Shown: piece by piece, positions 5,901 through 54,539 of the stretch
Position numbering within the stretch: the first letter of the stretch is position 1
Layout of the letters: the number at the start of each line of letters is the position of its first letter
Assembly (NCBI RefSeq): GCF_000365425.1
Contig: NZ_AQOV01000002.1
Coordinates: 682,001 to 746,000, forward strand
Reading direction: 5' to 3'
From: Methylomonas sp. MK1
GTDB lineage: Bacteria > Pseudomonadota > Gammaproteobacteria > Methylococcales > Methylomonadaceae
DNA length: 64,000 bases
The notes under the pieces: generated by a model
Told to the model about the DNA's origin: nothing
Databases searched by the model: none
The model's input: only the letters and a program-made list of their open reading frames with translations
Position numbers and translations under genes: made by a program

Positions 5901-5962
5901 AAAGCCAGGCTGATGCGCATTGCCGGCAATAAAAGTCCAACCGTCTTTTTTAGGGTGTCCAT
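2924..5962 (-). CDS. Membrane PAS-GGDEF-GGDEF-EAL c-di-GMP enzyme
   Basis: 1012 residues. TM1 (about 15-37) and TM2 (about 157-177) enclose a ~115-residue periplasmic sensor region. A PAS domain (about 190-310) and short coiled coil follow. GGDEF1 has an intact GGEEF (419-423), so diguanylate cyclase activity is likely. A second GGDEF-like domain is degenerate (GGDVF, 645-649). The EAL domain keeps EALIRW (774-779), NLSAVQL, EVTETT, DDFGTGYSS, the KIDRSF lysine and AEGVE, so phosphodiesterase activity is also plausible. It lies 61 bases downstream of the giant surface-protein gene on the same strand, which suggests c-di-GMP control of that protein. The last residues (about IDPAP and stop) come from the IS630 end; without the IS the frame would end TIVR and stop. 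Net enzymatic direction cannot be told. Confidence 0.93.
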   Translation of the reverse strand: MDTLKKTVGLLLPAMRISLALALISICLLFTAEMLGFMPDKSKFMLESRKQVSEALAIQFSTIAPDQDPHRIERMLNALIKRNPEIRSAGIRLQNDQLIFQVNDHVKEWADYDSQKSTSTHLVVPIFRDSEKWGDIEFKFAPIAGESASDFLEHPSFKMAIFFLVVGFFIYLTFMLRTLKVLDPSAVIPDRVNAAFDTLAEGVIIIDEHEQIVLANNAFLKKIASPMAALLGKKASQLKWKSADDSTTDTYLPWQTVLKTGKSSIGAHLKLLSPGNGTFKFVINASPILGGNDAAQGVLITLDDITEIEERNTKLQTMVSSLEESQAQVKEQNKELHFLATRDSLTGCLNRRAFNELFEKAFADALQNNLELSCIMVDIDHFKLVNDNYGHATGDVIIKLLAEILTTNTRKIDLVGRYGGEEFCIVLPGLSVDEAITVAERIRLRIKSESVARYENGPWVTASLGVASILDQPEDPSELNKFADEALYVAKESGRNRVERWQLQNEFAEKVKSDAQPAAKNPLATQIDADKDDSEVSKLQLRVDELEQIASQISTELDYSKHYDNLTGLPNQVLFYDRVNQVIERGHRYSHLAAIFVIDIGMFGMINATLGRTVGDKVLKEIADRLNLTFRKSDDISRLTLSRIGGDVFAVLIPELSNKEAVTWMVERLMDALADPIDIDRNSIYITGHIGISVYPSDANSVDDLINNAITAKTFCKKASSETGFQFFDNQMQALSIKHLHLDKELRRAVQNQEWELFYQPKMDIATQAIVGVEALIRWRHPSKGLLVPFEFIDFAEQRGLIVAMGEWVIRTACQQLKQWEEMGFMNRKIAVNLSAVQLKQDDFVEKVLAIIAEYQIAPRQLELEVTETTLMNNFQAALTALKRLSSRGIAISIDDFGTGYSSLSYLKNLPVDNLKIDRSFIIDICHDENDQKIVKMLINIAHSMNMTVIAEGVETQSQFDILADYGCDEIQGYLLSKPVPAEEIVKMFSKAGTGRSSTPLSGDSQTIDPAP

Positions 5963-6023: not shown

Positions 6024-9000
6024 TCACCGGGTGTCTTCAGATTGGGAAGATACAGAGTCAAGCTCATTAGCTTCATGGTCTTTTGCCGGCCTTGATTTTT
6101 TGACTGACCTCATTATGGGCAATGGATCAAAGCGTTTCAGTAACGGCACCGTAGACATAAAGCTGGCCATTAGCGACCCAGCCCGCAAGATCCAGCTGAC
6201 AAATCCGGCAGTGAGGCCGGCGCTGGTCCCCAGAATGATTTTAATGTTTACCGGATTGGCGTCGGCCACAACCGTAGGGTCGCTCATTTGCTTGCGAATG
6301 TTTTCCAATCTGTTCCAAAACTCCATTTCTTCTTGCTCACTTAAAGCAGTCTGGCTATCAATCCTGTATTCTTCGACCAATGGAATTCTGGATTGGAAGT
6401 GGTATTTTCGGCTATTTTCGCTGCTGCCTTGTGGTTCACTCTTATTCGAGTCTATCAGTCCGGATAACCGTGGGCTATTTCCATCGTTAATCCATGTGCT
6501 GGGTTCTAGGATAAATTGATTGCCTGTTGCCTGATTATCTCGGCCTGGTTGTCGGGTTAGTTGCTCAATTGGGGTGTTCAAATCGACAACGACCGCAAAT
6601 TGATCGGTGGAAACGTGGTGACTTGCTGAGATATTCGTTTGAGCGTTGTCTCCCTGATTTTTATCATTTAAACCATTTTTTTGGTTATATGTGATGATGT
6701 CGCGCAAAGTATTCGTTGTGTCGTTAGATGCACTATAGTCAATGCTGGCGGCCATTGTGGTAGAGCTGGCGGAACCGTCACTGACGGTGACATCAAAATT
6801 CGGTGCGACTTTATTCCCGTCATCGACAAACTGCACCTGGCCGGCGCTTAGCTGAGCGGTCGTAAAGCTGGTGATCGGCGTATTTGCTGCCGACGTCAAT
6901 TGGAAGTAGCCGCCGGACACACTGCTGACTGTGTAAGTGAAGCTGGTGTTGTCGGGGTCGGTCACACCGAAGTTGGCGGCCGATAGGGTGACGGTCTCGC
7001 CTTCGTTAAAGGTCAGGTTGGCGCTGCTGATTACCGGGGCGTCGTTGCTGGCGGTGATACTCAGCGTGCCTGACACCACATTGCTGGTCCCGCCATCACC
7101 ATCAGTCACATATCCTTGCAAGGTACGCACCAAGCTTGACGGCGCGTCCGAGACATTCTGATAGCTAATGTTACGACCCAAGGCCTGCACAGCGGCCACG
7201 CTGGCATTGCTGGTAAAGCTGATGACCAAAGGCGTCGCGCCGTCAGTACCGCCGGTGAAACTGCCGATGACGACGCCGGAGTAGGTGACATCGTTACCCG
7301 ACAAGCCGATTTGTCCACTGGCCGTACCTTGGTTGCGGATAGACAGACGATCTTCCGCTTGACCGTTAGTGCTAAACTCAATCACCATCTGGCCGTCGTC
7401 AAAATTTGTCAAGTCGGCATCGGTTACCGTCGCATTGGGCGCCAATATAACGGCCCCGGCATTTTCCGGATAACTGACATTGCTGGTGGCAAAACTTAAC
7501 ACCGGCGCATCGTTGACCGGATTGATAGTCACGGCGACGGTAGCGGTCTCGGTGGCGCCGCCGGATGTCACGCTATAACTAAAACTGGTGGCGCCGTTAC
7601 TGTTGGCAGTGGGCGTGAAGGTCAAGGTGCCGTTGGCATTTAGCGTGACGTTGCCGTCGGTGATGGCGACCGTTTGACCGCTACTGATGTTGATGCCGTC
7701 GATAGCCGAAATATACCGGCCTGAATTCTCAAAGGTATCGTTAGCCAGCGGGTCGAAGGTGACCGGCGTATCTTCATTCGTTGTCACGCTGTCATTTGCA
7801 ATGTCCGCGACGGCCGAGATCAAGCCGCTGATAGTGTCGCTATCCGACAAAGCGCCGCCGGAGCCGGAATTGCCATTGTCCGTAGTCACCACAGTGAAAG
7901 AAACCGCGCCGTTATCGTTATAGTCAGCAGTGGTGGTAAACACCGGCGCAGTTGCCGCCGACGCAAAATAGGCGTTGATCGACGCTACATCGCCGGAGAG
8001 CACCAAGCTATTGGTGCCGCTACCGCTGATCGTGACACCGCCAGCTGATGTTGCCGAAAAAACACCCGCTGCCGTGCTTACCGACAAGGTGCTGGTAACA
8101 GTTCCCGAACCGCTATCAACATCGGAGATGACGACCGAGCCGAGCATTTGAATCACCGAGTCTTCCGGCACGCTGGTGCCATCGCCGTAAACGGTATTGA
8201 CCGGCGCATCGTTCACGGCGGTAATGTTGATCGTGGCGACATCAAAGCCAGTCAGCGCGCCGCCCGAACCGGTGTTGCCTTGGTCGTTAACGCTCAAGGT
8301 TAAGGTATCGGTGGCGGGCGGCGTATCGGAATTGATGATATAGCTCAACGATCCGCTGGCATTTCCGGCCAGCAGATCGTTGATTTGGCTGAGGCTGCCG
8401 GTCAACGTGATGGAACTGGTGCCGGAGCCGGAAACGGTAACCCCCGTCGTACCCGCATTGGCTGTCAATGTGCCAGATACCACCGAGACAGTCGCTTGCA
8501 CGTTGGAGCTACCCGCGTCGACATCCGCGATATTTAGCCCGGTGCCGTGCAGGGTTAGGCTGGTTTGTTCGGTAGCGCTATAGCTGGCTGGGGTTATCGT
8601 TGCAGTCGGCGCATCGTTGATCGGATTGACTGTAATTACCTGAGTCGCCGTTGCGATCAAACCGCCGCCGGTTCCGGTATTGCCTAAATCATTCAGCGTA
8701 AATTCCATACCGCCTGGCCCACTGTAGTTGGGGGCCGGCATGTAATCTATGTTATCCAAAGCGGTGTTAATCGCCGCTAGGGTGCCACGGAACGTCATTG
8801 TGGTATCCGCTGCGCCATCGCCAACGGAAAATGTCAATCCGACCAACCCGCCTAAAGTGACTGTGCCGCTAATAGCGGAAATCGTCATCTCCAGATTTGC
8901 GGAACCGGCATCAACGTCAGAGATCGTAATGGCATTGCCAATCCAAGCCGAAAAGCGCTTTACCACGTCTTCATCGGTAGTTCTCGCGCTAACGACATTG

Positions 9001-12000
9001 ATTACAGGTGCATCGTTCACCGCATTGATGCTTACGGTGGTGTTACCACTGGTGGTTAGAGCGCCACCACCACCCTGGGCACCGGCATTGACATCACTGA
9101 AGGTCCAGTCGATCTGCACGCTGGCCGGCGGCGTGTCGCTCCAGTTCCAATACACGGTGTTGCGCATCAAAGTGTTGACCCGGTCATTGGTCGCGTTGGC
9201 GCCAAAAGTAATTTCCATCTGCCCGCCGGTGAAGGTGTAGGTACCGACCTGGACGCCGCCGACATAAACGTCGGCGCCGCTGACCGTGACGGTGATGCCG
9301 TCGAACGCCAACGCGTCCTCGGCATTGGCGCCGCCGTGGCGGGCCAGGGTCAATGTCGAACCGTTGAAATTGTTAGTACCGGACAACTCGGCATCGAAAA
9401 GCGTCACGTCGGCGTCAAGGACCACCGCCGAACCGTTTTCGATAAAGGTAGGCGCGCCATTCAGGTTAGCGAACACCGGCGCATCATTAACGGCGGTAAT
9501 GTTGATGGTCAGCGTATTGGCCGTGCTATCCAGGGTTTGTCCGCCGCCATAGCTACTACCATCGTCCACGATACTGAATAAAAAGCTGGTTGCTGCGGTG
9601 CTATTGGTAGCCGGTGTGTAGGTCAATTTTCCAGATTGAATGTCCGCGGCACTGTTTGCGTCCAACTCTTGCACGGCAACGCCATTCAAATACAGTGTGC
9701 CGGAGGCGGGCAGAGATTCGATCCAGACCTGGCTGAGATTGTTACCGTCGACATCGGTGAACGGAAAATTGGCGGTGGTAAAGGTGTAAGCAGTATCCTC
9801 GGTCACCGTAATCGTTTGGTCTTGTCCGACCGGTGCACTGTCCGGTGTTTCCGTGATAACAGCATTGGAAAATTCCGAGGTTTCGTAAAAAGTCGAATAA
9901 CTGGAATGGGTGCGGGTAGCGGTAACGGTAAGGTACTGGCCAGTCGCTAGGCGGGCATCTGAGAAATTAAATTGAATATTGACGGTTCCTGAACTGCCAA
10001 CCGCCATGTTAACGGCGTTGAGAAAGGTCGGTCCCTCGCCGCTGGCCGTGGTATCCGAATAAACTTCGATGCGGTAATAGCTGTTAGCCGCCCCATTATA
10101 GGTACCGCTCAAGGTTAAATTGGTGCCATTCACAGTCGCGCGGGTTAGCACCATCGTGTTCAACAGACTATTGGGACCGCTATCGACATCGCCCGCGTCG
10201 TTGGCTGTAGCGCCATCGTCGCCCAGGTCGATGCCAAGTCGGGTATTGCCGTAAATGCTATTCTCTAAAAAGACGTTGCTGGAGCTAGTACCCACAACCG
10301 TTATGCCCACGTCATTGTTGGCGATGATATTGCCTGCACCGGCCGCCGTGCCGCCGATCAAGTTACTGCTGGCGGAATTTTCAATAGCAACCCCTTGAAT
10401 ACCGTTCCCCAACGCTGTCACACCATCCGTGCTAACCCCTATGTAGTTGCCTTGAACGACAGTACCGGTGGTGCCGTTATCGCTGATATAGACGCCGGCC
10501 TCGGTATTGCCTGCAATGATGTTGCGTGCCGCCGCCGTGATGCCGCCAATTACGGTGTTGTCGGCACCGCCGATCACTGAAATCCCATCCCAACTGTTTG
10601 CCAAACCGGCATTGCCGGATACGTCGGTACCAATATAGTTACCTTGGATGACATTGTTGTCGGCACTTTCGCCGTTGATAAAAACGCCGGAGTAACTGTT
10701 ACCTGAGAGCAGGTTGCCGGCGCCGCTTGCAGTGCCGCCGACAGTATTTCCAGATGATTCGATGGTGATGCCGGAATTAGCGTTGCCCAAGTCTACAGTA
10801 CCGGAAATGTCGGTACCGATGTAGTTGCCGGTGATGACGTTACCGGTAGCTGAGCTACCGGTCAGCGTAATGCCAGAGCCGTTGTTACCGGAAATGAAGT
10901 TACGTGCAGCGGCGGTTGTGCCGCCGATGGTGTTGTTGGCCGACTGCACGTAAATACCGCCGGCGGCATTGGCTATTGCTGCGGTACCGGCGGCATTGAG
11001 ACCGATCAGGTTGCCAGCAACCAGCGTGTTGCTGGCGGGTGCTTCCAATTGAATGCCCACCCAGTTGGTGGTACCGCTGATGACATTGCCTTCGCCAGCT
11101 ATCGTTCCGCCAATGATGTTACCGGCGGCATTGACCCATATGCCCTGATTGGCATTGCCCACGGCATTGGCGCCGGTCACATCGGTGCCAATGTAGTTGC
11201 CTTTGATTTGGTTGCCGGTGGCCGAACCGTTGTCGGTACTCAAGCCGATACCGATACCAGTATTACCGGAAATCACGTTGCGATCCGCCACCGAGCTGCC
11301 GCCGATGATGTTATTGGCCGAATTCCAAATACCAATACCTGCGGAGTTACCCGCCGCGCCGGTACCGGCGGCGTTAAGACCGATCCAGTTGCCGGCGACG
11401 GTATTGCCGTTACTGCCGGAAATCTCAATGCCGGTGCCGGCAAAATTTTGAATCACCAGGCCGCGGATGGTACTGCCGTCGCTGCCGCCGTAGAGTTGGA
11501 TGCCATTTTGTATGTTCCCTGCGCCGTTTAATACAATGGCAGGTCGACTGCCATTGGCGCTAAAACTATCGTCGCTGGTGGCGTCCAGCACAATTGTGCT
11601 GGTTATGGTCAGCGCTGAGGTCAGATTGATGGTATGCACCGACGTGCCGCTGATGCCGAAATAAATATAATTCGGGCCGGCGGTATTGTTGGCAGCGGCA
11701 ATCGCCTCCCGCAACGAGATGCCGTCGCCGCCGTCGCTGGCAATCAATGCGCTGATCGAACTGGTATTGGCACCTGCGCTGATAGTATCCGAGGTGTTGG
11801 TAACGACAATGGCGCCGACATGCACATCCAGGGTGTCGGTGTCCGTTAAAGTACCGCCTGTACCGGCGTTACCTTGATCGCTGGTGGTCATGGTCAATTG
11901 AGCCAGGCCACGGTAATTGCTATCGGGGGTAAAGGTCAGACCATTATTCAGTGCGGTATTGATTGCCGCCACTGTGCCGGAATAGCTCATGCTGCCGCTA

Positions 12001-15000
12001 CCATTGGCGCCGCTGACCAAGGTCATGCCCGTGGTACTGGCCAGCGACAAGCTGCCGTGACTGATGCTTAAGGTCAGTTGCACACTGCTGGAGGCCGCAT
12101 CGACATCGGCAATTTGTAGGGCATCGCCATTGGCGCTGGAGAAGGTTTTGCTGGTATTGATGGCCGTATAGCCATTGGCGGGCAGACTGTTGACTGGGGC
12201 GTCATTGATTGCCGTGACCGCGATGCTCCGAGTGGTAATGTTGCTGGCCGTCGTGCCGTCGATAACGCTAAAACTTACGGTACGGCTGGCGGTGGACGGT
12301 GCATCGCTGGTGTTTTCATAGGTAATAGAACGCAATGCGGTTTGATATTGGGCGACGGTAGCCGATCCGGATAAGGTCAGTGTGCCGGTGCTTGCATTCC
12401 AACTGCCGGTGATGCCGTTTTGGTCAGTGAATGCCAGCACGTCCTGCCCGCTGGCGTAGTTGCCGGAGATTTGCACCGTGGCACCGGCCAGGTTGGCGCT
12501 ATCGACGTCCGAAAGCACCAGAGTTGAGGTCACCGCCGTCGCGGGACCGTTCTCCGTGTAAGCCAGCGCGGTGCCTTCGATGCCTGAAATGATCGGTGCC
12601 TCGTTGACATTCAACAGTTGAATGGTGAAGTTTTCATCGTACGTGGCACCGCCCGCATCCGTAACCCTCACGGTAATGATATGACTGGATGCGGTTTCAA
12701 AATCCAGCCTGCTACCATCGGCGACGCTGATGGTGCCGTCGGTTCCTAGGGCAAAGCGTCCGCCGGCACTATCGGTTAGACTGTATGTAGGATTGGCGCT
12801 GGCATCAATATCGAATCCCACCACGGTGCCCACTACGGTGCCGTTAGCGGCGTTCTCGGCGACCGTAAATCCAGTGGTTTGCTGATACAGTGCCGCCACG
12901 TTGGCAGCGCTCATCACGCCGTTGGCCACAATAAAATTATCGATAGCACCGTCGAACGCCGCGTCGCCAGCCCAATGCGATTTGCCGATGAAGTTATTGC
13001 TGCGAACACCAGTCTCCAGCGCCACGCCGGCGGTGGACGCGGCCAAGTTGCCATTGACATACAGGTTCATGTTGCCCGATGCATCAACCGTGGCGGCGAA
13101 ATGCAACCATGAGCCATTGGTGATGGCATTGGCGGCGGTGGCGCGATAGGTGTACGCGCCATTTTTCTCGATCGTGAAAGTGAGGTTGTTGGTGTTCCAT
13201 TCCCGACCGACATAGATGTTGCCAATTCCAGTGCTATCGGTTTGCCCGAAATCGAACACGCGCTGCCAATCGCCGGTGCTATCGAATTTGACCGAAGCGG
13301 CAAAGGTCATCGCGCCGCCAGTTGTGATCCCAGAAATATCACCATACTGGCCCGATGTCCCGCCGGCCAGATCTAACGCACCGGAGCCATTGGGGCCGGT
13401 GGTTTGGCCAGGGTTGCTGTAAAAGGTTATTGGGGCATTGTTGCCGGCATCATCTCGGCCGAGATTGGCAAGATTATTGACGCCATAAACGCCCACCAGA
13501 TCGGATTTCGCGACACCGTTGATACTGTATAAATCGTTGGGTGCGTCGTTGACTGCCGCGACTGTGATCGCCACCGTATCGGTATCTGTTAATGTCAAAT
13601 CCTTAGCAAGCGTGGCAATTTCGGCTGTAGTCAGTGCTCGATTGTAAACCCGCGCGTCGTCTATCTTGCCATTAAAGTCGTAAGTGGTGCCGCCGTTACC
13701 GTGTTTGCCTATAAAGCTATTGCTTCCCTGGCTGTAAGCAATGGATGTGGTGTAAGCGGTAGAAGCCACGGCAACGCCGTCGATATAAACCGTTTGGGTA
13801 TGGGCTGCGCTGTCGATGGTGTATGCAACGTGGTGCCAGCCGGTTCCGGCCAATGTCGTAGCCGTCTCGGTAAATCTGAAAGTCCCGCTGTCGACATAAC
13901 TGCCTTTGATTTTGCCGCCAGCATCTAGGCGGAGTAACACGTTGTCACCCAGCGAAATTACTTCCGCGCCCCCGGTGTCGGCGGACGTCAAGTTTACCCA
14001 GGCCGCCAGGGTTACACTGGATGGCTGGCCGTAAAGCCCGGTAGTTTGTACATAACCGTCACCAGCCAAACTCAGCACAGTGCCGCGGGTAGCGTCACTG
14101 ACCGCTATGCCGTTGATGACCGAGCCCGCGTAACCCGCCGCCGGACTGCTATCGGTACCCAGTGTGCCGGTGTTCTCGAAAGCATAACGGCCCAACAGAC
14201 CGGTATCGATATCCAAACCCAACAGTACCGAGTCTTTGGTAGTCAATGTCAGTGTCGCGCTGCCGATGTATTCGGCAGTGGGCGTGAAGCTTAAGCCATT
14301 GAGTGCGGTGTTGATGGCGCTGGCCGAGCCACGAAGCGTCATCGTGCTATCTGCGGTGCCGTCGCCGGCCAAAAAGGTCAAGCCGGTGGTGCCGGCCAAG
14401 GTCAGCGTGCCATTGGTGACCGTCAGAGTGATTTCGTTGTTTGCGCCGCCGGCATCGGCGTCGGCTATCGTAATCGTATTGCCATTGGCCGATGAGAACA
14501 CTTTGGCGGTGTCCTCATTCGTCGTTTGTGCTGCGGGTACTGTATTCACAGGCGCGATGTTTATACTTGCTTTGACAGATACCGCACCTATCGACCAATC
14601 GGCAGCAAGTAACGCTGAACCGCTCATCGTTACTGAGCTCGCGCCTTCCGCCACGGAAGAGCCAGCCTTTGCCGTAGACAATAGGGAAGAGCTGGTCCAT
14701 TGCGAAGTTTGCCCGGTGCCGGTTGTATCAGCTGAAATAGCTTTCCAATACTGCACGTCGATAACCAAATCGCCAGTCGCACTGGCGACATTCACCGTGC
14801 CTGATCCTCCCAACAAACCGGTGGTGCCGGTGTTGCCAGCGTAAGTACCGTAGGGCGTCGATTGGTTAACACCGTTAAAGGTCGATGCACCCGCAGTGGC
14901 TTCTGTATTTCCAGTAAATGATATAACGACGTTATCGGTTCCCTCTGTGGGGTTGACCAAAGCCCAGATTTCGACGGCGTGATTGGCTGCTGTGCGTCCG

Positions 15001-15953: not shown

Positions 15954-16262
15954 AGATGCTGCTAGAGTTTAGCGACTTCGCTTTAATTATTCTGTGATTG
16001 CAACAAATAATCCGCAATAGAACACAGATAAGCGTACTCAAAATGTGCAGTGGTTAAGTGTCGGAGGGTGCATGGAAAAAATGGAGAGCTTGTGGCTTTT
16101 ATTAGCCCCGCCCTTAAATACCATCACCCCTCGAAGAGCAAACCAGCTTGGGTTTCGACGACCTCAGACCGAACGGAATACCGGTAGTTTCCCTACTACA
16201 GCTCCGGTTTCCGTTCTATACTTCCGCTTGATTTAAACACTGTCTAATTTGGAGGGACGCCC
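15954..16262. other. Divergent control region between giant gene and export-like operon
   Basis: 309 bases without a convincing gene; a 63-codon open frame at 16045-16236 has no family resemblance or ribosome site. It separates two divergent units, so it should hold both promoters. I could not pick a sigma-70 promoter with confidence. A strong hairpin (16171-16216) lies near the operon start, and a good ribosome site GGAGGG (16251-16256) precedes the first HDOD gene. Confidence 0.5.
16171..16216 (+). promoter_or_regulatory. Large hairpin upstream of the HDOD genes
   Basis: GAACGGAATACCGG (16171-16184) pairs with CCGGTTTCCGTTC (16204-16216) over 13 base pairs with a single bulged T. TAGT/ACTA (16185-16188 and 16195-16198) can extend the stem. 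No U-tract follows, so it is not a simple terminator. It ends 46 bases before the TTG start of the first HDOD gene. It could be a 5' leader structure, a riboswitch-like element or a protein-binding palindrome. I could not match it to the c-di-GMP-I consensus by eye. Confidence 0.5.
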
Positions 16263-17129
16263 TTGCTTGATCCTGTCAAGATCAATTCGCAAGCAGATTT
16301 GATCGAACACACCTTGCAAGAAATCAAAGGTTTGGTTTCCTTGCCCGAGGTATATCAGAAAGTTAGAAATTTGATCGACGATCCCCATTCGGATATCGAG
16401 CACTTTGTCGAAGTTGTGGCCAGCGATCCCAACTTAACCGTCGCCGTGTTAAGAGTTGCCAACAGTGCTTTTTTTGGTTTTCCAGGCAAAATCGACAGCT
16501 TGAGTCGGGCGGTCAACATGCTGGGCATAGGGCAGCTACATGACTTGGTGCTGGCTACCTCGGCGATTGCCTCGTTAAAATTGCCCAATGACATCATGCC
16601 GCTGAAAACCTTTTGGCGGTTCAGCTTGTTCTCGGCGGTGTTGACCCGGTTGTTGGCAAGCCAGCTAAAAATCCCCAAGAGCGAACGCCTGTTTGTGATT
16701 GGTTTGTTATATGAGATAGGGCATCTGGTGCTTTACGCAAAGCACCCTGAGTTGGCGAAACGCGCGATGGAACTTTCCCGGAATAACCAGGAAATGCTGT
16801 ACATCTCTGAACAAAAACTGTTAGGCATGCATTACGGCGAGATAGGTGCCAAGCTGATGGCGCAGTGGCATTTACCGGCGCATTTTCAAGATATTGTGCA
16901 TTATCAGCCCACCCCTGACCTTGCCCCGGAACAGGTCAGGGAAACCGCTCTGCTGCATCTGGTGCGGGCTTGTGCCGAAAAATCTATATTCGGGCATATG
17001 AGCCCGATCGAGCAGAGCGTATCCAGGGACATTTGGGATATTTTGCAACTCAACCCCGAACAGTTGGACGACACTGTCGAACAAGCTTTAAAAGCCGCGA
17101 CTGAGATGGAAAAGCTCATGTTCAACTGA
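16263..17129 (+). CDS. HDOD-domain protein 1
   Basis: 288 residues, almost all one HDOD domain (metal-lacking relative of HD phosphohydrolases). LPEVYQKVRNLIDDP, TVAVLRVANSAFFGFPGKIDSLSRAVNMLGI and LLYEIGHLVLYAKHPE are family hallmarks. The start is a TTG supported by GGAGGG six bases upstream. HDOD proteins act as signalling or scaffolding modules, often linked to c-di-GMP and surface behaviour; no catalytic HD pair is expected. It is the first gene of a tightly spaced run; the next gene begins 7 bases later and encodes a paralogue. Confidence 0.9.
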   Translation: MLDPVKINSQADLIEHTLQEIKGLVSLPEVYQKVRNLIDDPHSDIEHFVEVVASDPNLTVAVLRVANSAFFGFPGKIDSLSRAVNMLGIGQLHDLVLATSAIASLKLPNDIMPLKTFWRFSLFSAVLTRLLASQLKIPKSERLFVIGLLYEIGHLVLYAKHPELAKRAMELSRNNQEMLYISEQKLLGMHYGEIGAKLMAQWHLPAHFQDIVHYQPTPDLAPEQVRETALLHLVRACAEKSIFGHMSPIEQSVSRDIWDILQLNPEQLDDTVEQALKAATEMEKLMFN

Positions 17130-17135
17130 TCCAGC

Positions 17136-18026
17136 ATGAAAGCCGAACAACGATTCCTTTGCGATTTGGCCGAAAAAATTTCGATGCCCGAGGTGTATCT
17201 GAAAATCAGGCTGTTACTGGAAAAGCCGGATGCCAGAATCCGCGATTATGTCGCCGTGCTGCAAACCGATTCGATGCTGACAATTCGCATAATCCGCATG
17301 GCCAACAGCAACTTCTTTGGTTTTAATCGCAAAGCCGACGATCTTTACGATGCAATCAGCCTGATAGGCACCATCCAGTTGCATGATTTGCTGTTGAGCA
17401 GTCTGTGCATGCGCACGTTTTGCAATATTCCCGGCGCGGTTCTGGACTTGAAAGAGTTCTGGTTGCACGCCATCGAATGCGGCATTGCCTGCCGCACTCT
17501 GGCTAAGCTGGCCGGACTGCCCGCTGGACACCGTTTTTTTGCATTGGGCCTGTTACTGGAAATCGGCCACGCGGCGATGTTTGTGAAAGCTCCGGAACAG
17601 GCGCTGAACGCATTAATGGCAAGCCGGGAGGAGGGCTTGCCGATTGATGAGCAGGAACGACTGGTGTTTGGTTTTGATTATTGCCAATTGGGTTCGGAGT
17701 TGATGCGCTTATGGCATTTACCCGAGGTGTATTCGCACATCATTGGTCACCACCTGCATCCCGAAACTACCGATCCGCATTATCGCAACGAAACCTATCT
17801 GATTTACTTGGCTCAGCAAGTGTTTGCCGAACCGGAGCAATTTAATAAAGTGCTCAGCGGTCTAAAGGATAGCCATCAACAATTTGCGGCTATCCCCAGC
17901 AATTTGAAAGACCTGGTCAGTCAAGAAATAGCCTCCCATCTCGATGACATATTTCTGATGTTGTGTCCGCAGAATATTGTTCTGAATTCTGCCAACCAGG
18001 ACGAGGTTTTCCGCCATGAGCATTAG
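17136..18026 (+). CDS. HDOD-domain protein 2
   Basis: 296 residues, a second HDOD protein related to the preceding gene: MPEVYLKIRLLLEKPDA, TIRIIRMANSNFFGFNRK and LGLLLEIGHAAMFVKAPE line up with it. The pair probably arose by tandem duplication and may act as a heterodimer. It overlaps the following GAF-HlyD gene by 11 bases, so translation is likely coupled. The role in this operon is inferred to be regulatory; nothing in the sequence gives a ligand. Confidence 0.9.
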   Translation: MKAEQRFLCDLAEKISMPEVYLKIRLLLEKPDARIRDYVAVLQTDSMLTIRIIRMANSNFFGFNRKADDLYDAISLIGTIQLHDLLLSSLCMRTFCNIPGAVLDLKEFWLHAIECGIACRTLAKLAGLPAGHRFFALGLLLEIGHAAMFVKAPEQALNALMASREEGLPIDEQERLVFGFDYCQLGSELMRLWHLPEVYSHIIGHHLHPETTDPHYRNETYLIYLAQQVFAEPEQFNKVLSGLKDSHQQFAAIPSNLKDLVSQEIASHLDDIFLMLCPQNIVLNSANQDEVFRHEH

Positions 18027-19764
18027 ATTTGCCCAACAGTGGCTGGACATTGTCTGCCGGATTGTGCCGCAAACCCAGGCTGCGGTATTGATGGTGAGCG
18101 ATGCGGATCGCAAAGCACTGCGGCTGTTAGCGAAATGGCCGGAGAACATCGCCGATGCTGCCGAGTTATCCGCTATTTGCAAACTTGTGCTGGAGAAAAA
18201 TCAACCAAGTTGCGTTCCCAACGTAGTACAGGCCGATCAACGCCATTACGACTTCTTCGGTCTGCCAGTCTTCGACGGTTCGGCGTTATTGGGGGTGATT
18301 GTGCTCAAGCTTGAGCATTCGCTCACTGATCGACGAGAGGCAGTTTTTGCCATACTGGAGCAAAGCGTGGAGTGGTGGCGTTTGGCTCAAAGCCGTTTGC
18401 AGCAGAACGACAATTTTTACAGCTCCGTAGTGGGTTTGCTGGCGGCTTGTTTCGAGCAAAATAGTTACCGCGAGATTTTGATTAGCCTCGGTACCGAATT
18501 GACGCGCATGTTGAATTGCGATCGGGTCGCCATAGGCGAATTCAAGGACAACTACAGCACTGTAGTGGCGATTTCCAATAACGCGCAATTCGATCAGCAG
18601 GCCAATCTGTTGCAAAAAATCGCCGATGCCATGGACGAAGCCATCGAACAGGATAGTGTCGTGGTGGTTCCCGATGTCAAATCGGTCGCCATTCAACGTG
18701 CCCATCAGGAAATCGTCCGCAAGTACGGCTATGGTTCATTGCTGACCGTGCCTATGCTGCATGGCGGTAAATTTATTGGAGCGGTTACCCTGCTACGCAG
18801 TGAAGAACAAGCCTTTGATAAGGAAACCGTTCTGCTTTGCGAACAAGCCCTGGCACTGCTCTCGCCCCACCTGGCCTTAAAAAAACTCGACGAACAAGCA
18901 TTGACGGTAAAAATCGGCATCAAGCTTAAACAACGGCTAGCCGAACTGTTGGGCGTGAAGCAATTTAAAGTGAAGTTGACGGTTCTGGGTTTGGTGTTGT
19001 TTTTGTCGATCTCCGCCCTGTTGCGCGGTGATTTCCGCCTGACGGCAGACGCGGTGTTGGAAGGCAAAATTCAGCGGGTGGTGGCTGCGCCGATAGCCGG
19101 TTTTTTGCAATCGGCGGCGGTACGGGCCGGCGATACGGTGCGACAAGGCGAATTGATGGCTAGTCTGGATGACGCGGAACTGCAATTGGAGCTAAACAAA
19201 CTGGATGGGCAGCTGCAAAAATTCCGCCGCGAGTACCGCGAAGCCCTGTCCGGCGGCGATCTGGTTAAAGTCCGGGTCATCAGCGCGCAAATCGAGCAGG
19301 CCGACGCGGAAATGGAGCTGACGCGTCAGCAGTTGCAGAAAATCAATCTGGCCGCGCCCTTCGATGGTGTGGTGATTGAAGGCGATTTGAGTCAGAAACT
19401 CGGCTCACCGGTCGAACGCGGCGAAATCCTGTTCAAAATCGCCCCGTTGGAGGGCTACCGTATCATTTTGAAAGTGGATGAAAGTTTGATTTCCTATGTG
19501 CAGGTGGGCCAAAAAGGCGAGTTGGTGTTGGCCAGCATGCCCAGCCAGACTTTCCCACTACAGGTGCAAAAGATTACCGCAGTCGCCAAAACCGATAGTG
19601 GCAAAAATATCTTCCGCGTCGAAGCCAGTCTGGAAAACGCGCCTGAACTACTAAGACCAGGCATGGAAGGCATAGGCAAAATCGCGGCCGGTCGGGCCAG
19701 TTTGCTGTGGATATGGAGCCACGACATGTTGGCTTGGTTGCGTTTGTGGATTTGGTCTTGGTGA
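18016..19764 (+). CDS. GAF - membrane - HlyD adaptor fusion
   Basis: 582 residues. The N-terminal half is soluble and sensor-like, with a GAF domain at about 150-305 (LTRMLNCDRVAIGEFKDNY, YGYGSLLTVPMLHGGKFIGA). One TM helix follows (about 322-345, VLGLVLFLSISALL). The C-terminal half is a HlyD/RND-type periplasmic adaptor: a lipoyl/barrel-sandwich half (VVAAPIAGFLQSAAVRAGD, APFDGVVIEGDLSQKLGSP), a short alpha-hairpin and a beta-barrel. It thus joins a cytoplasmic sensor to an export adaptor across the inner membrane. It sits 21 bases before the M50 gene. A cytoplasmic GAF on an export adaptor is uncommon; the ligand is unknown. Confidence 0.9.
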   Translation: MSIRFAQQWLDIVCRIVPQTQAAVLMVSDADRKALRLLAKWPENIADAAELSAICKLVLEKNQPSCVPNVVQADQRHYDFFGLPVFDGSALLGVIVLKLEHSLTDRREAVFAILEQSVEWWRLAQSRLQQNDNFYSSVVGLLAACFEQNSYREILISLGTELTRMLNCDRVAIGEFKDNYSTVVAISNNAQFDQQANLLQKIADAMDEAIEQDSVVVVPDVKSVAIQRAHQEIVRKYGYGSLLTVPMLHGGKFIGAVTLLRSEEQAFDKETVLLCEQALALLSPHLALKKLDEQALTVKIGIKLKQRLAELLGVKQFKVKLTVLGLVLFLSISALLRGDFRLTADAVLEGKIQRVVAAPIAGFLQSAAVRAGDTVRQGELMASLDDAELQLELNKLDGQLQKFRREYREALSGGDLVKVRVISAQIEQADAEMELTRQQLQKINLAAPFDGVVIEGDLSQKLGSPVERGEILFKIAPLEGYRIILKVDESLISYVQVGQKGELVLASMPSQTFPLQVQKITAVAKTDSGKNIFRVEASLENAPELLRPGMEGIGKIAAGRASLLWIWSHDMLAWLRLWIWSW

Positions 19765-19785
19765 AACGGGGGCTAAGGCTGCGTC

Positions 19786-21930
19786 ATGGCTAACGAACTT
19801 TTTAGTCCGCATTGGTACCGAGTCGCTAAACTCAAGCCCAGGCTACACAGCCATATCGAGATCCATCGCCACGAGTATCGCGGCCTGATTTGGTACATCC
19901 TCGAAGACCCCAATACCGCCCGCCACCAGCGCTTTAACAGCCTGGCCTATCAGTTTATCGGGTTATTGGAAGGCAAGTTAACGGTGCAAGAGATTGCCGA
20001 TACCCTGAATCGGCAACTGGGTGACTACGCGCCCAGCCAACAAGACCTCATTCAGTTGCTGGGGCAATTGCATCAGGCCGATTTGATCCAAACCGACGCC
20101 TTGGTCAACACCGAAGAATTGTTCGAGCGTCAAGCCCGACTGAACAGCGCGAAAAGCAATCAGCGTTTGTTAAATCCACTGTCGTTGAAATTACCGCTGT
20201 GGGATCCGGACGAGTTTCTCGGCAAACATGTGTCCAAAGTGGCTGGTTTGTTCAGCATTAAATTCGGCGTGGTCTGGCTGCTGGTCGTCGCAATCGCTTT
20301 GCTGCAAGCCGGAGCGAATTGGCCGGAAATCAGCCATCATTTCGAATTGAACGCCTTGGCCCCCTACAATTTTTTGATCATGTTCTTGCTGTATCCCCTG
20401 ATCAAAATCCTGCATGAATTGGGACATGGCTTTGCGATGAAGGTGAAAGGCGGCGAAGTGCATGAAATGGGCGTCAATTTTTTATTGTTTATACCGGTGC
20501 CTTACGTCAATGTCTCAGCCGCCAACCATCTGCGTAACAAATACGACCGGATGTTGATCAGCGCCGCCGGCATTTTGGTCGAAGGCTTTCTGGCCGCGCT
20601 CGGCTTATTCTTGTTTTTGAGCACCGAGACCGGCTTTGTCCAGGATATTGGTTTCGACATCCTGCTGACCGGTGGCGTGTCGTCGCTATTTTTTAACGGC
20701 AACCCGCTATTGAAGTACGACGGCTATTACATTCTGGCCGATGCTTTGAGTATTCCCAATCTATACCAGCGCTCGACTCAAATCTGGAGCTATTTATTTC
20801 AGCGCTATCTGTTTGGTTTGAAACAGGCGGTTTCGCCGGCCTCCGCGCCAGGCGAAACGGCTTGGTTCGTAATCTTTAGTTTGGCGTCGCTGACTTACCG
20901 CCTGATGATGTTGTGGTTCGTCTGTATCTATCTGATCGAAAAATTTTTCTCCTTGGGTGTCGTCGTTGCCTTGTTGATGGTGTCATTACAGGTCGTGTTT
21001 CCGCTGTATAAAGCCATACGTTTTGTGTTTACCAGCCCCAGTCTAAGTCGGAAAAGAGATAAGGCGCTGCTGACCACGGCAGGGTTGGCCTTGTTTCTCG
21101 TTCTGGTTTTCGGTGCTTTGCCGATCCCGAATTACACGCTGGCCGAAGGCGTGGTTTGGCTGCCCGATGAAGCGTTGATCAAGGTCGAGCAAGAGGGCTT
21201 TATCGGCGAACTTTTAGTGAGATCCAATCAGTTTGTGAATCGGGGTGATGTATTGCTGGCCATGCACGACGACGCCTTAGAAGCCAAAGCCAAGATCGCA
21301 CGCGCCAAGGTTGCCGAGTTGCAAAGCCAATATCGGGCGGAGAAAGAGTCGGATTTGGTGAAGGCGGAAATTTTGAAAGAATCGCTGCACGTTGCGGAAT
21401 CCGAACTGGACCATTTGAACAAAAAAGCGAGTGCTATGATTGTGAGTGCGACGAAATCCGGCTACATTTTGTTGCCGGATGCCGACGATCTGACCGGTAG
21501 CTATTTACGCCAGGGTGAGTTGATTGGTTACATTCTGGATGAACAGCCGCCGACGATCCGCATGGTGGTAACGCAAGACAATATTGGCCTGCTGCGGCAA
21601 GGTAGCCCGGAAATCAATGTGCGCCTGGTAAGTGATCCATATCGAGACTATCCGGCCCGTATTATCAGGCTGGCGCCGGAAGCGACCAACACGCTACCCA
21701 GCCCGGCCCTTGCGACCACCGGCGGTGGCAAGATCCGCGTGAATTCGGAAAACGAACAAGACATGCAAACCCTGCAAAAAATCTTTTTGGTCGATCTGGA
21801 CTTCTCGCCGCCGAAAAATCTACCGATAGGCATGCGCGCCTATGTGCGGATCAACCATGGCGGCGAATCGATTATGACTCAGCTGTACCGCCGGGTACGC
21901 CAGGTGTTTTTGAGGCAGTTCAATGTCTGA
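19786..21930 (+). CDS. M50 metalloprotease with PqqD-like and HlyD parts
   Basis: 714 residues. The start (about 30-105: YRGLIWYILEDPNTARHQRF ... TVQEIADTLN) resembles a PqqD-type peptide-recognition wing. Several TM helices hold a site-2-protease core with HELGH at 210-214 and the second zinc-ligand motif NPLLKYDGYYIL. After a last TM helix (about 430-450) comes a lipoyl/HlyD adaptor with coiled coil (EGFIGELLVRSNQFVNRGD onward). Such M50-lipoyl proteins are known beside peptide exporters and ABC systems, but here no ABC ATPase is nearby and the next gene is SecA-like. It probably cuts or guides a substrate at the inner membrane. It overlaps the SecA-like gene by 8 bases. Confidence 0.92.
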   Translation: MANELFSPHWYRVAKLKPRLHSHIEIHRHEYRGLIWYILEDPNTARHQRFNSLAYQFIGLLEGKLTVQEIADTLNRQLGDYAPSQQDLIQLLGQLHQADLIQTDALVNTEELFERQARLNSAKSNQRLLNPLSLKLPLWDPDEFLGKHVSKVAGLFSIKFGVVWLLVVAIALLQAGANWPEISHHFELNALAPYNFLIMFLLYPLIKILHELGHGFAMKVKGGEVHEMGVNFLLFIPVPYVNVSAANHLRNKYDRMLISAAGILVEGFLAALGLFLFLSTETGFVQDIGFDILLTGGVSSLFFNGNPLLKYDGYYILADALSIPNLYQRSTQIWSYLFQRYLFGLKQAVSPASAPGETAWFVIFSLASLTYRLMMLWFVCIYLIEKFFSLGVVVALLMVSLQVVFPLYKAIRFVFTSPSLSRKRDKALLTTAGLALFLVLVFGALPIPNYTLAEGVVWLPDEALIKVEQEGFIGELLVRSNQFVNRGDVLLAMHDDALEAKAKIARAKVAELQSQYRAEKESDLVKAEILKESLHVAESELDHLNKKASAMIVSATKSGYILLPDADDLTGSYLRQGELIGYILDEQPPTIRMVVTQDNIGLLRQGSPEINVRLVSDPYRDYPARIIRLAPEATNTLPSPALATTGGGKIRVNSENEQDMQTLQKIFLVDLDFSPPKNLPIGMRAYVRINHGGESIMTQLYRRVRQVFLRQFNV

Positions 21931-23920
21931 GTTGGTGCTGCGTCCTGGGGTACATTTTGGTAGCTACCCGCAAAAGCCGGAAAGTCGACTAAGCGATTTC
22001 GAACAAGGCGCGGCGGCATTTTTCGACAAAATCCACAAACGCCTGCATCGCCAGCGGTTCAGCCAGCCTTATATCGTCAGTCGAGTTGAAAAAATTGCCG
22101 CCCCTCTAAGCAACTACAACGAGCAACAACTGACCATTGCCATTCTGGATCTGCGGGAAAATCTATACCGGCATGGTCTGAAAGAAGAACTGATGATCAA
22201 AGCCTTCGCGCTGATTCGCGAAACCGCCGGTCGAACTTTGAATAAACGGCATTTTGATGTGCAACTGTTTGGCGGCTGGTTAATGATCAACGGCATGCTG
22301 GCGGAAATGGAAACCGGCGAAGGTAAGACGTTGACCGCGACGTTGCCGGCCTGCACTGCCGCCTTGGCCGGCATCCCGGTGCATGTGATTACTGCCAACG
22401 ATTACTTGGCGGCGCGCGATGCCGAGATTTTGAAGCCGCTTTATCTGCGCCTGGGCTTGAAATCCGGCGCGGTAATCGACGGTATGGACCTGGAACAGCG
22501 CCGAAAACTCTATCAACAACCCATCGTGCACACGACGAATAAACAGATTGCCTTTGATTATCTGCGCGACCGCATTGAAATGGGTGAAGATGTGGGCTTG
22601 TTAAAATTTCAATTCAAGCAGATTCAACGGCAAATAAAACAGCCGAGAAGCAACGCTCTGATCATGCGCGGCTTGTGCTTTGCCATTATTGACGAAGCCG
22701 ATAGTGTATTGATCGATGAAGCCAAAACGCCACTGATCATCACCCAGACCCGGCCGAATGAGGAGTCTCCGGAAACCTATGGTGATGCTTTGTATCTGGC
22801 CTCATCGTTGTTCATCAACGACGACTTTGTCATGGACGCCAAAACTCGCGACGTTGAACTGACGCCGCAAGGCGAAAATACTATTGCGGATATGATTATC
22901 GGCTTGGGGCCGAGTTGGAAAAACAAGCGCTGGCGGGAGGCTATGGTCAAGCAGGCGCTAATCGCCGAGTATTGCTTCAAGCGCAACAAACAATACATCC
23001 TGAAAGACAACAAGGTCCAAATCATCGATGAGTTTACCGGCCGGGTGATGGAAGATCGCTCCTGGGAACAAGGCTTGCAGCAAATGATAGAAGCGAAGGA
23101 AGGTTGCTTGATTTCCGAACAACGCGAACCTCTGGCAAGGATCAGTTATCAGCGCTTTTTCAGTCGCTATCTCAAACTGGCCGGTACCTCGGGCACGGTG
23201 CGGGAAGTAGCAACGGAAATGCAGCGCGTTTATGGTTTGCATAGCATAAAAGTGCCGACTCATAGAGTGTCGAAACGGATTTTGCTCAGTGAGCGGATTT
23301 ATGCCACGCAGGTAGCCAAGCAACGCGTGTTTCTACAACGGGTCAGCGAGTTGCACTCACTAGGCCAGCCGGTATTGATCGGTACCGGTTCGGTCGTCGA
23401 ATCGCTGGAGGTCAGCGTATGGTTGGAGCAGGCCGGCGTTCCTCACCGGGTATTAAATGCCGAGCAAGATCAACACGAAGCGGAAATTATTGCCCATGCC
23501 GGCCAGCTAAATGCCGTTACCGTGGCGACCAATATGGCAGGCCGCGGCACCGATATTGCATTGGGCTTGGGCGTGGCGGAGCTGGGCGGTTTGCATGTGA
23601 TCGCGTTGAACTGTAACGAGTCTCGGCGCATAGATCGGCAACTATACGGCCGTTGCGCCCGGCAAGGCGATCCGGGTAGCTGCGAAGCGATACTGTCGCT
23701 GGAGGATGCGCCGCTGAGTGAGTTTTATTCGTCTGCTATCCTCAAGGCTCTGGCCGGCCTGGCTAAAGATCAGCAAGCTTTGCCGGCGCTGTTGGGAAAA
23801 CTGATATTACGCTTGCCGCAAACTTACAAAGAGCGGCAACAGCGCAACATCAGAAGGCAATTAAGCAAACAGGACAAGCATTTGTCGCGTATTTTGGCGT
23901 TTTCCGGCAAGTTTGAATAA
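21923..23920 (+). CDS. Short SecA-like translocase ATPase
   Basis: 665 residues against about 900 for housekeeping SecA. Walker A is in EMETGEGKTLTATLP (GEGKT at 132-136); AIIDEADSVLIDEAKTPLII is the DEAD box; FAFDYLRD-like FDYLRDR, VATNMAGRGTDIALG and IDRQLYGRCARQGDPGS are the remaining SecA motor motifs. The usual N-terminal region is divergent. After the second motor domain only about 70 residues remain, so most of the helical wing/scaffold and the C-terminal zinc (SEC-C) domain are missing. It is best seen as an accessory SecA for a special substrate. Neighbours (M50-HlyD, HlyD, divergent giant protein) suggest that substrate is the giant surface protein. It could instead be a SecA paralogue with another role. 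Confidence 0.92.
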   Translation: MSELVLRPGVHFGSYPQKPESRLSDFEQGAAAFFDKIHKRLHRQRFSQPYIVSRVEKIAAPLSNYNEQQLTIAILDLRENLYRHGLKEELMIKAFALIRETAGRTLNKRHFDVQLFGGWLMINGMLAEMETGEGKTLTATLPACTAALAGIPVHVITANDYLAARDAEILKPLYLRLGLKSGAVIDGMDLEQRRKLYQQPIVHTTNKQIAFDYLRDRIEMGEDVGLLKFQFKQIQRQIKQPRSNALIMRGLCFAIIDEADSVLIDEAKTPLIITQTRPNEESPETYGDALYLASSLFINDDFVMDAKTRDVELTPQGENTIADMIIGLGPSWKNKRWREAMVKQALIAEYCFKRNKQYILKDNKVQIIDEFTGRVMEDRSWEQGLQQMIEAKEGCLISEQREPLARISYQRFFSRYLKLAGTSGTVREVATEMQRVYGLHSIKVPTHRVSKRILLSERIYATQVAKQRVFLQRVSELHSLGQPVLIGTGSVVESLEVSVWLEQAGVPHRVLNAEQDQHEAEIIAHAGQLNAVTVATNMAGRGTDIALGLGVAELGGLHVIALNCNESRRIDRQLYGRCARQGDPGSCEAILSLEDAPLSEFYSSAILKALAGLAKDQQALPALLGKLILRLPQTYKERQQRNIRRQLSKQDKHLSRILAFSGKFE

Positions 23921-24002
23921 ACGCTTTGGCCTTGAATTTACTATTTTGTTAAAAATCAGACCGTTTCAAATCAAGTCAAATTAATCCATTAGTAACTTTT
24001 AC

Positions 24003-24890
24003 ATGTCCATACGCCACCTTTTTTTTCGCGCACTACTCGGCCCCGGCCTATTCAGTGGCGCCGTGCTCGCCGCCAATCTGGATTGCATGGTCAAGCCGGA
24101 AATGTACGTCGAGCTAAGCAGCCCGGTTGCCGGTACCGTCGAAGCGCTGTTGGTCGATAAGGGCGATCACGTTGCCAAAGGCCAGCCGCTTGCCCAATTG
24201 GAAGCCTCGGTGGAATGGGCCAAGTTCAACCAGGCCAAGGCCGATGCCGAGACCAATAGCGAGGTACGCAATCAGAAAGTGAAATTGGAGTACGCCACGC
24301 GCAACCGCACCCGCTATCGCAGTTTAGCCACGACCAGTGTTATTTCTCAAATCGAGAAAGACAAAGTCGAAACCGAAGTGGTGTTAGCTGGAATCGAGTT
24401 AAAAAAGGCAGAGGAACGCAAAAAGTCCGCAATGCTGGCATTGGAAATGGCTAAGGCACAACTGGAGGTTAAAACCATCAAAAGTCCGATAGACGGCATC
24501 GTCATCGACCGCTATGCCATGCCCGGCGAGTCGGTCAGTGATCGCGCGATTATGAAACTGGCGCAAGTGAATCCTTTGCGGGTTGAGTTGATCGCGCCGA
24601 CTGAATACTTTGGCCTGATTCAACCGGGTATGGAAGTGGACGTACGCCCTGAACTGCCGGTCAAAAAAGTCGTGAAAGCCATGGTCACCAAAGTTGACCA
24701 ATTGATCGATCCGGCCAGCGGTAGCTTTACGGTGCGCATGACCTTACCCAATCCCAGCGACGAACTAATCGGCGGTGTCAACTGTATCGCTACCTTCGAT
24801 TTTGCCACCCCAGCCGCAACCACGACACCGACTCCACCGCCTTTTGCGCCGCAAAACGCGGCTCCAGCGGGTCCGGTCATAAAGCGTTGA
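24003..24890 (+). CDS. Secreted HlyD-type periplasmic adaptor
   Basis: 295 residues. The N-terminus is a signal peptide (FFRALLGPGLFSGAVLAA, cleavage near residue 22). The mature part is a compact membrane-fusion protein: barrel-sandwich (LSSPVAGTVEALLVDKGDHV, TIKSPIDGIVIDRYAMPGES), an alpha-hairpin of about 80 residues, and a beta-barrel. The end is Pro/Thr-rich (about 268-295). It lies 82 bases after the SecA-like gene, probably in the same transcript. It is the third protein with an HlyD-type half in this run and may bridge to an outer-membrane partner, which is not encoded nearby. Confidence 0.88.
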   Translation: MSIRHLFFRALLGPGLFSGAVLAANLDCMVKPEMYVELSSPVAGTVEALLVDKGDHVAKGQPLAQLEASVEWAKFNQAKADAETNSEVRNQKVKLEYATRNRTRYRSLATTSVISQIEKDKVETEVVLAGIELKKAEERKKSAMLALEMAKAQLEVKTIKSPIDGIVIDRYAMPGESVSDRAIMKLAQVNPLRVELIAPTEYFGLIQPGMEVDVRPELPVKKVVKAMVTKVDQLIDPASGSFTVRMTLPNPSDELIGGVNCIATFDFATPAATTTPTPPPFAPQNAAPAGPVIKR

Positions 24891-42258: not shown

Positions 42259-42479
42259 CAGTCTGACCTCGCCGCAATTGCTGGTTTAAGGCGGCCACAA
42301 TAATCAACGCGTGCGGAAATAACAATGGCGTTTGAACTGCTGTGGTCGTTTTCAGGGCGCTTGCCGGAGAGTGTTGCACTGATGTGGTGCGTAATGCGGT
42401 TTGGGCGACGTAGCGGCGATTTAACTTTTTGATAAATAGACATTAATAAGATTGGCATGTGGATTGCTGAAGGATGGTC

Positions 42480-44845: not shown

Positions 44846-44945
44846 ACAATTGATTGAACCGCATCGGAATTATGTGACTTGCCGACGGTTTAAAGGACAT
44901 TTTGGCGATTCAGCCTAACGGACAAATAGAGTTAGAGGTAAACGG

Positions 44946-50444: not shown

Positions 50445-50507
50445 TTTATCCGTTTAAATCCGTTGCGTAAAACCCTCGCCTGGAACTATCTGGTCAGGCC
50501 TTCTATG

Positions 50508-53970: not shown

Positions 53971-54047
53971 TTAGTGTCGATGTTTAAGTGTTTTTATACT
54001 ACGTTAATTATTATACGACCTTATAAGCAGTAGGTAGGATCATTACT

Positions 54048-54539
54048 TTGCAAATTCAGGCGGACATGAAAGAATTATTTAGTGACGTACTAACTAATGC
54101 GCAATTCTCCGACGGTTCCGGCTGGAAACGATATCGCCTAAATGCGGGTCAGACCATCGTGAAAAAAGGCCAGCAAGGAAACACATTATTTCTCATAGAA
54201 GAAGGTGTTGTTAGAGTGTTAGGTGGTGCAGAGCTGGATGGGAATCGGCGCATAAGTCCCGGCCTCTGTGATTTAGAAGCTGGGGCAGTATTTGGAGATG
54301 TCTGTTTGTACGAGCCCAGAGAGAGAACGGCCTCTGTTGTTTCGTTGACTGATGTGTGTTTACTTGAAGTTCGTAGTGACATGTTGAGCGTTTACTTGGA
54401 CGATCATCCGGTGCAGGGTTATTTATTTTTGAAAGGCTTGTTTCAAGCTATGTCTAATCGTTTGGGATTAGCAAATGATCGAATAGAGCATTTACTGGCA
54501 TGGGGAATTAAAGCACATGACATCGATAAATATTTGTAG
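54048..54539 (+). CDS. Cyclic-nucleotide-binding-domain protein
   Basis: 163 residues from a TTG at 54048 (TAGGTAGGAT lies upstream); an ATG at 54066 is an alternative. It is one CRP-type beta-roll: QTIVKKGQQGNTLFLIEEGVVRV, then LEAGAVFGDVCLYEPRERTASVVSLTDVCLLEV. No HTH follows, so it is not a CRP-like DNA binder; a regulatory partner role is likely. The RTASV phosphate-binding region is plausible (ERTASV). It is 32 bases before the second acyltransferase and probably co-transcribed. Confidence 0.88.
   Translation: MQIQADMKELFSDVLTNAQFSDGSGWKRYRLNAGQTIVKKGQQGNTLFLIEEGVVRVLGGAELDGNRRISPGLCDLEAGAVFGDVCLYEPRERTASVVSLTDVCLLEVRSDMLSVYLDDHPVQGYLFLKGLFQAMSNRLGLANDRIEHLLAWGIKAHDIDKYL

Follow-up and report, generated by a model that had tools for sequence, protein, structure and literature searches.

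The 64,000-nucleotide stretch of Methylomonas sp. MK1 DNA analysed here (contig NZ_AQOV01000002.1, positions 682,001 to 746,000; hereafter the window) contains a gene for a giant surface protein and, divergent from it, a tightly packed gene run that encodes two HDOD proteins, three HlyD-type membrane-fusion proteins, one of which is fused to an M50 intramembrane protease, and a short SecA ATPase (Table 1). We conclude that this run is probably a dedicated module for the biogenesis and export of giant proteins with a LEPR-XLL leader at the N-terminus.

A giant-protein gene and a divergent gene run

The open reading frames (ORFs), coordinates, gene order, overlaps and domains given in an earlier note on this DNA agree with the ORF list and with Pfam and NCBIfam searches. 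Within the run, the second HDOD gene and the GAF-HlyD gene overlap by 11 bases, and the M50-HlyD and SecA genes by 8 bases. The closest named genome among the matches listed is that of Methylomonas sp. LW13, in which the M50-HlyD protein is 95% identical and the SecA 92% identical.

Comparison with its LW13 relative, which has no upstream in-frame start, indicates that the giant probably begins at M21 (near 15893). The control region would therefore be about 370 base pairs (bp) long rather than the 309 bp first reported. A scan of this region for promoters and terminators found none; there was no Rfam match at the gathering score, and no tRNA was found. The leader of the giant, LEELESRQLFSGG, is a LEPR-XLL variant recognised by eye and with patterns of our own making, and the LEPR-8K model (NF012209) gave no match to the N-terminus at E ≤ 1. 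No 19-residue span of the protein reaches a mean Kyte-Doolittle value of 1.6. A Pfam hit to Toxin_R_bind_N (16.2 bits, below the cut-off of 23.8) was rejected as noise.

Table 1. Features of the giant-protein locus, with the second giant operon of the same genome
Feature	Position	Strand	Remarks
Membrane sensor-PAS-GGDEF-EAL protein	2924..5962	(-)	61 bp downstream of giant, same strand
Giant surface protein, 3309 residues as called	6024..15953	(-)	ORF list, Pfam and NCBIfam: DUF4347, LamG, cadherin-like, tandem-95 repeats
Giant C-terminal region, last 130 residues	6027..6416	(-)	Weakly hydrophobic segment and DPLP motif
LEPR-XLL-type leader motif, giant residues 36-48	15810..15848	(-)	LEELESRQLFSGG; proposed address signal
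HDOD protein 1	16263..17129	(+)	Pfam, NCBIfam
HDOD protein 2	17136..18026	(+)	Pfam, NCBIfam
GAF-HlyD membrane-fusion protein	18016..19764	(+)	GAF, transmembrane segment 318-336, HlyD
M50-HlyD protein	19786..21930	(+)	PqqD/RRE-like domain, M50 intramembrane protease, HlyD
RRE-like domain of M50-HlyD, residues 16-105	19831..20100	(+)	
HExxH zinc motif of M50-HlyD, residues 210-214	20413..20427	(+)	
Short SecA ATPase, 665 residues	21923..23920	(+)	Both motor domains, preprotein cross-linking domain, start of scaffold helix; nothing further
Walker A of short SecA, residues 131-136	22313..22330	(+)	TGEGKT
HlyD-type adaptor	24003..24890	(+)	N-terminal hydrophobic signal-like segment
Second DUF4347/LEPR giant operon	G000:C1 ~401700-416640 (L006)		

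A SecA that ends early

Pfam and NCBIfam find SecA_DEAD, the SecA preprotein domain and a P-loop in the short SecA, which aligns with residues 24 to 604 of Bacillus subtilis SecA. Its AlphaFold2 model (mean predicted local distance difference test score 86.7) superposes on SecA structures as far as residue ~612 (B. subtilis) or ~660 (Escherichia coli), and its final element is a single long helix, residues 622-661. The protein stops at SecA position ~604-612 of B. subtilis chains of 762-802 residues, with no region past the first scaffold helix; parts of SecA farther along the chain, among them the two-helix finger and the wing domain, are missing. In an alignment of 56 sequences (A3), L658, F660 and G662 at the extreme end are nearly invariant, and the short end is therefore common to the relatives of this protein. 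Motor motifs are likewise conserved among 82 such SecAs (GEGK in 79, GRGTD in 76, QL.GR..RQG in 65), gathered with a length filter of 450-900 residues that dropped L133, a 1,203-residue frame with an overlong start. These 82 and 15 housekeeping SecAs lie on separate sides of one split (support 0.947). The best SecA-family score of the short SecA is 549.8 bits against a cut-off of 814, and its scores against four SecA2 models (499.6, 446.6, 397 and 361.4 bits) all fall below the respective cut-offs of 1085, 930, 725 and 1100.

It is worth considering whether the short SecA is an accessory, SecA2-like motor on ordinary SecYEG, with the M50-HlyD and HlyD proteins acting later in processing, anchoring or outer-membrane passage. 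The genome encodes one SecY and one full-length SecA, as this explanation would have it, and the conserved motor and preprotein domain also speak in its favour. Set against these, the loss of the C-terminal parts, which we take to be those that work with SecY, argues against a normal SecA-SecY cycle, and the first 120 residues of giants with first-type leaders (see below) show no strong signal-peptide-like core, their top 15-residue hydropathy lying at 0.6-1.6 by a crude measure. We consider the SecYEG explanation unlikely.

A protease fused to an adaptor

The M50-HlyD protein of the window matches M50, HlyD and PqqD in Pfam and NCBIfam, with M50 and PqqD below curated cut-offs in this particular sequence. 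Across an alignment of 58 members (A2), M50 is matched in 54 and PqqD in 41 at E ≤ 0.01, and H210, E211, H214 and D312 are invariant. The HExxH motif lies within helix 193-220, and, as in site-2-type M50 proteases, this motif and a distal aspartate are placed in transmembrane helices. No M50 fold appeared among the matches listed for the protein, which concern mainly its adaptor part. The N-terminal domain is predicted from its model to have the winged-helix, PqqD-like fold of the domains that bind leaders of ribosomally synthesized and post-translationally modified peptides (RiPPs), and a family-model search shows a resemblance between the PqqD-M50 part and the model for daptide proteases.

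Conservation of the module across genomes

Using the M50-HlyD protein, we fetched 80 named loci, the best 80 of at least 577; because the best-scoring ones were taken, the sample is biased towards close relatives of the query, and ORF starts in all loci are mechanical calls (L, G and C numbers denote our loci, genomes and contigs). The set of GAF-HlyD, PqqD-M50-HlyD, short SecA and HlyD recurs in records from Proteobacteria, Nitrospira, Omnitrophota and Rokubacteria, with its gene order retained across phyla: GAF-HlyD is present in 75 of the 80 loci, short SecA in 72 and HlyD in 56. A TolC-type outer-membrane protein (OEP), sought with four seeds, is found in 10, and is confirmed by Pfam in G240, G053, G077 and the second giant locus of the MK1 genome. 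The earlier observation that no TolC lies nearby is thus accurate for the operon of the window and does not serve as a general picture. Only two loci contain an ABC (ATP-binding cassette) ATPase-like ORF of at least 450 residues by motif, and the run itself has no ABC ATPase, which bears out the earlier view that it is not a standard type I system.

Among the eight loci without a short SecA, four end at a contig edge; for each of the remaining four, a short SecA gene is present in another part of the genome, across an apparent contig break (L107, L130) or at a separate place (L077, L108), which in the L108 genome is ~2 kb from a LEPR-8K match. The distances among SecAs correlate with those among M50-HlyD proteins (r = 0.87 over 74 sets, with none of 999 permutations as high), a value to which common descent contributes. 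Two short SecAs occur in one genome, each in its own module (G240:C113 and C84), along with five LEPR-8K matches. A divergent short SecA of 571 residues (L214 14599-16314, genome G060; E 2e-47) accompanies M50-HlyD, GAF-HlyD, HlyD and a weak OEP match, perhaps as a third version of the module.

The HDOD genes adjoin the module in just 11 of the 80 loci; we therefore reject them as core parts and regard them as an addition in this lineage. Across the fetched loci, 11 ORFs contain homologues of the N-terminal sensor of the PAS-GGDEF-EAL protein, and at least in L100, L135 and G081 they adjoin a giant. This recurrence, and the position of the sensor gene beside the giant in the window, would suit a module that regulates or releases a giant exported by some other pathway, with M50, GAF, HDOD and GGDEF-EAL controlling retention and release as LapD and LapG do for LapA; M50 proteases often act in signalling. 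Yet such a role leaves the SecA motor, the three membrane-fusion proteins and the OEP genes of some loci unexplained, and the scarcity of HDOD genes and of ABC-like ORFs at these loci also weighs against it. We judge it distinctly improbable.

Two versions of module and leader

The MK1 genome encodes a second DUF4347 giant (contig C1, 3,033 residues) in an operon with the order giant, OEP, HlyD, HlyD, M50-HlyD and with no SecA there. The M50-HlyD of this operon is of a second type (alignment A4), which has similar neighbours in G162, G119 and G224. The leaders differ as well. In the second type, D follows the LL-like pair, as in LEPRILFDGAA, LEPRMMFDGAV, LEPRIMLDAAA, LEPRIMFDGAA and LEPRLLFDGAA, or in the form LE.R[IV]VLDAA of G056, G229 and G112; in the first type this residue is mostly S, otherwise A or N. 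The leader of the L100 giant reads LEPRLLFSAD; its entry in our motif table was wrong, a neighbouring gene having been taken. If the RRE-like domain recognises the leader, the form of the leader would be expected to go with the type of protease, as is seen here in small numbers.

Association with giant proteins

In a class sample of 274 genomes, DUF4347 is carried by 31 (30 pass the Pfam cut-off; G265 and G090 were counted on partial matches), short SecA by at least 17, M50-HlyD by 40 (E ≤ 1e-20) and LEPR-8K by 19. The short-SecA genomes were picked by hand for a high score, an open frame of up to 837 residues and a match past residue 590; G176 (872 residues) and G168 (808 residues, the sole SecA of a 0.3 Mb genome) were set apart as full length, and G060 as divergent. 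The 17 genomes so picked all have M50-HlyD (23 of the 257 others do), and DUF4347 is found in 13 of them (18 of 257 others) and LEPR-8K in 12 (7 of 257). Similarly, LEPR-8K occurs in 17 of the 40 M50-HlyD genomes and 2 of the 234 others, and M50-HlyD in 17 of the 19 LEPR-8K genomes and 23 of the 255 without LEPR-8K. For pairs of module part and giant, and of module parts with each other, Fisher p is 6e-11 or below, values that are merely indicative because the genomes are related.

The loci show the same association. A giant, recognised by length, composition, or a DUF4347 or C-terminal match (a rule that may admit shadow ORFs), is present at 43 of the 80 loci. It adjoins the module at 30 of 41 loci when both flanks extend for at least 3 kb, at 25 of 35 when they extend for 5 kb and at 16 of 23 for 7 kb; the outcome that would have told against the earlier proposal, a run found mostly without a giant nearby, is not what we see. 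Ten giants from 11 loci traced upstream, of 6,436-14,389 residues, bear a motif of the LExxE.R type that lies at residue 26-121 of the frames as called, and 7 of 9 giant N-termini pass the LEPR-8K cut-off, with one more matching below it. Open frames of ~11,700 to 14,400 residues also lie beside or near the module in L098, L116, G240:C84, G301:C7 and G053:C1.

Could efflux adaptors of a generic kind and a remnant SecA simply have come to lie beside a giant gene, by chance or hitch-hiking? HlyD and M50 families are common and some loci lack a giant, as chance would allow; the co-occurrence statistics, with the reservation just given, the gene order kept across phyla and the conserved catalytic motifs make this explanation highly improbable.

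Several observations nonetheless weigh against reading the run as a dedicated module for LEPR-XLL giants. By rule, 11 of the 41 well-flanked loci have no giant. A search with LEPR-8K in 12 genomes, those of 10 of these 11 loci (not L123) and of the short-flank loci L111 and L129, offsets this in part: the model matched elsewhere in 10 of the 12, in eight of them in frames of at least 4,000 residues and, for L108 and L139, solely in frames of 681 and 86 residues, and it had no match in the genomes of L090 and L105. In Methylobacterium brachythecii (L127) the giant starts ~9 kb from the module. Two genomes (G213, G076) have LEPR-8K without M50-HlyD, M50-HlyD is absent from 8 of the 31 DUF4347 genomes, and 12 of the 40 M50-HlyD genomes have neither marker, of which G112 and G229 carry the second-type motif. 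Five genomes with LEPR-8K and M50-HlyD (G052, G177, G190, G206, G224) have no short SecA among the matches listed; the loci of G052 and G206 are truncated by contig ends, G224 represents the second type and G190 has an otherwise full module. The giant of Nitrospira L080, the eleventh traced upstream, has no LExxE.R-type motif, the long neighbour in G008 (2,195 residues) lacks a LEPR motif and has an N-terminus of the ordinary signal-like kind, and the G177 giant reads LEDRILLDAN, yet its M50-HlyD resembles the first type.

Type I substrates have an uncleaved C-terminal secretion signal; in the giants here this end varies, some being of the DPLP type and others having an [IV][DN]W motif. The C-termini of L099, L100, L114, L135, G190, G081 and G009 resemble that of the window. 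Because a hydrophobic segment is confined to the DPLP type, a C-terminal transmembrane anchor as universal M50 target is not supported. Giants without DUF4347 (L086, L096, L116, L130, L138, G107) share a C-terminal ~[IV][DNS]W followed by DFV..L......RNPN..L.I, which may serve as another signal or as an anchor.

Other genes in the window

Near the giant cluster, positions 1515-2405 hold a transposase-like integrase-core gene (rve, HTH_21). The sole OEP found in the window (37824-39269) lies beside genes for a major facilitator superfamily (MFS) transporter and HlyD within an EmrAB-like efflux set (36244-40438), close to which there is a LysR regulator. Genes for a circularly permuted ATP-grasp protein, an alpha-E protein, a transglutaminase-like protein and a DUF2126 amidoligase are grouped at 42474-49507. 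The mostly AT-rich region 49662-63728 encodes, by Pfam, a histidine kinase, a sigma-54 response regulator, two acetyltransferases of the autoinducer-synthase kind and a TPR protein, together with polysaccharide export, chain-length and kinase-like genes; we take it to resemble an exopolysaccharide cluster of the exosortase/PEP-CTERM type.

Discussion

From these gene-level observations we infer a possible path for the giant. The RRE-like domain of M50-HlyD would bind the leader on the cytoplasmic side, and the intramembrane M50 domain would remove the leader or free the bound chain. The short SecA, having kept the ATP-driven clamp and lost the SecY-acting C-terminal parts, might then drive the unfolded chain through an inner-membrane route formed by M50-HlyD and GAF-HlyD, or together with housekeeping SecYEG. 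The three HlyD-type adaptors would form the link to an outer-membrane channel of the TolC type, whose gene lies at the locus in some relatives and would lie elsewhere in the genome here. Expression or activity may be tied to signals through the GAF and GGDEF-EAL parts and, in this lineage, through HDOD. The earlier proposal that these proteins act together on the giant thus gains support by association, as a dedicated module; relatives with an OEP at the locus amend its TolC-less picture, and transport, proteolysis and anchoring enter only as conjecture.

A more specific proposal, which we put forward tentatively and at somewhat less than even chances, is that the module is a new diderm secretion system: a SecY-independent, ABC-free tripartite conduit with a SecA-family motor that lacks the SecY-working parts, and with a leader-reading protease-HlyD fusion as its inner-membrane part. 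It would serve LEPR-XLL proteins of up to ~14,000 residues, and a sister version without a short SecA at the locus would serve the LEPR...DGA leader.

Comparison with known systems is informative. Type I secretion (ABC, HlyD and TolC, including the exporters of RTX adhesins) shares membrane-fusion proteins, an OEP at some loci and giant repeat-rich substrates; HlyD-type proteins are present here and an OEP is absent from this operon. The module differs in having a SecA-type motor and an RRE-M50 fusion and no ABC ATPase, for which we set type I secretion aside, and in substrates with an N-terminal LEPR-XLL motif. Accessory Sec systems (SecA2 or SecA2-SecY2) likewise have a second SecA ATPase beside the housekeeping one, and in some Gram-positive bacteria SecA2 specifically serves large surface proteins. 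The short SecA differs in scoring below the SecA2 cut-offs, in its missing C-terminal parts and in the HlyD adaptors alongside; with these cut-offs unmet and a single SecY match in the genome, SecA2/SecY2 was also set aside. Bacteriocin exporters with a peptidase and daptide-type RiPP systems, as we understand them, join leader recognition and a leader protease to an exporter; here the substrates run to thousands of residues, a SecA replaces the ABC component and the protease is fused to an HlyD adaptor.

LEPR-XLL is common in Planctomycetota and Cyanobacteria. The NF012209 model names the motif; many of the giants match it, the giant of the window bears a variant, and here the motif is tied to a gene set. 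A search of full-text literature that lacks most subscription papers and bioRxiv, including passages of PMC3482391, PMC8277102 and PMC10868602, gave no account of a system of this kind; the name LEPR-XLL appears there in two papers, one of them in a passage on a Vibrio giant protein.

How bacterial proteins of 5,000 to 15,000 residues exit the cell is often unclear. The unexplained LEPR-XLL motif is now linked to a gene set that combines adaptors and a protease with a motor and a recognition domain, so that a methanotroph amenable to cultivation offers a direct test. If the proposal is true, a tripartite secretion system would have taken on SecA as its motor, and giant proteins would be recognised by their leaders in the manner of RiPPs.
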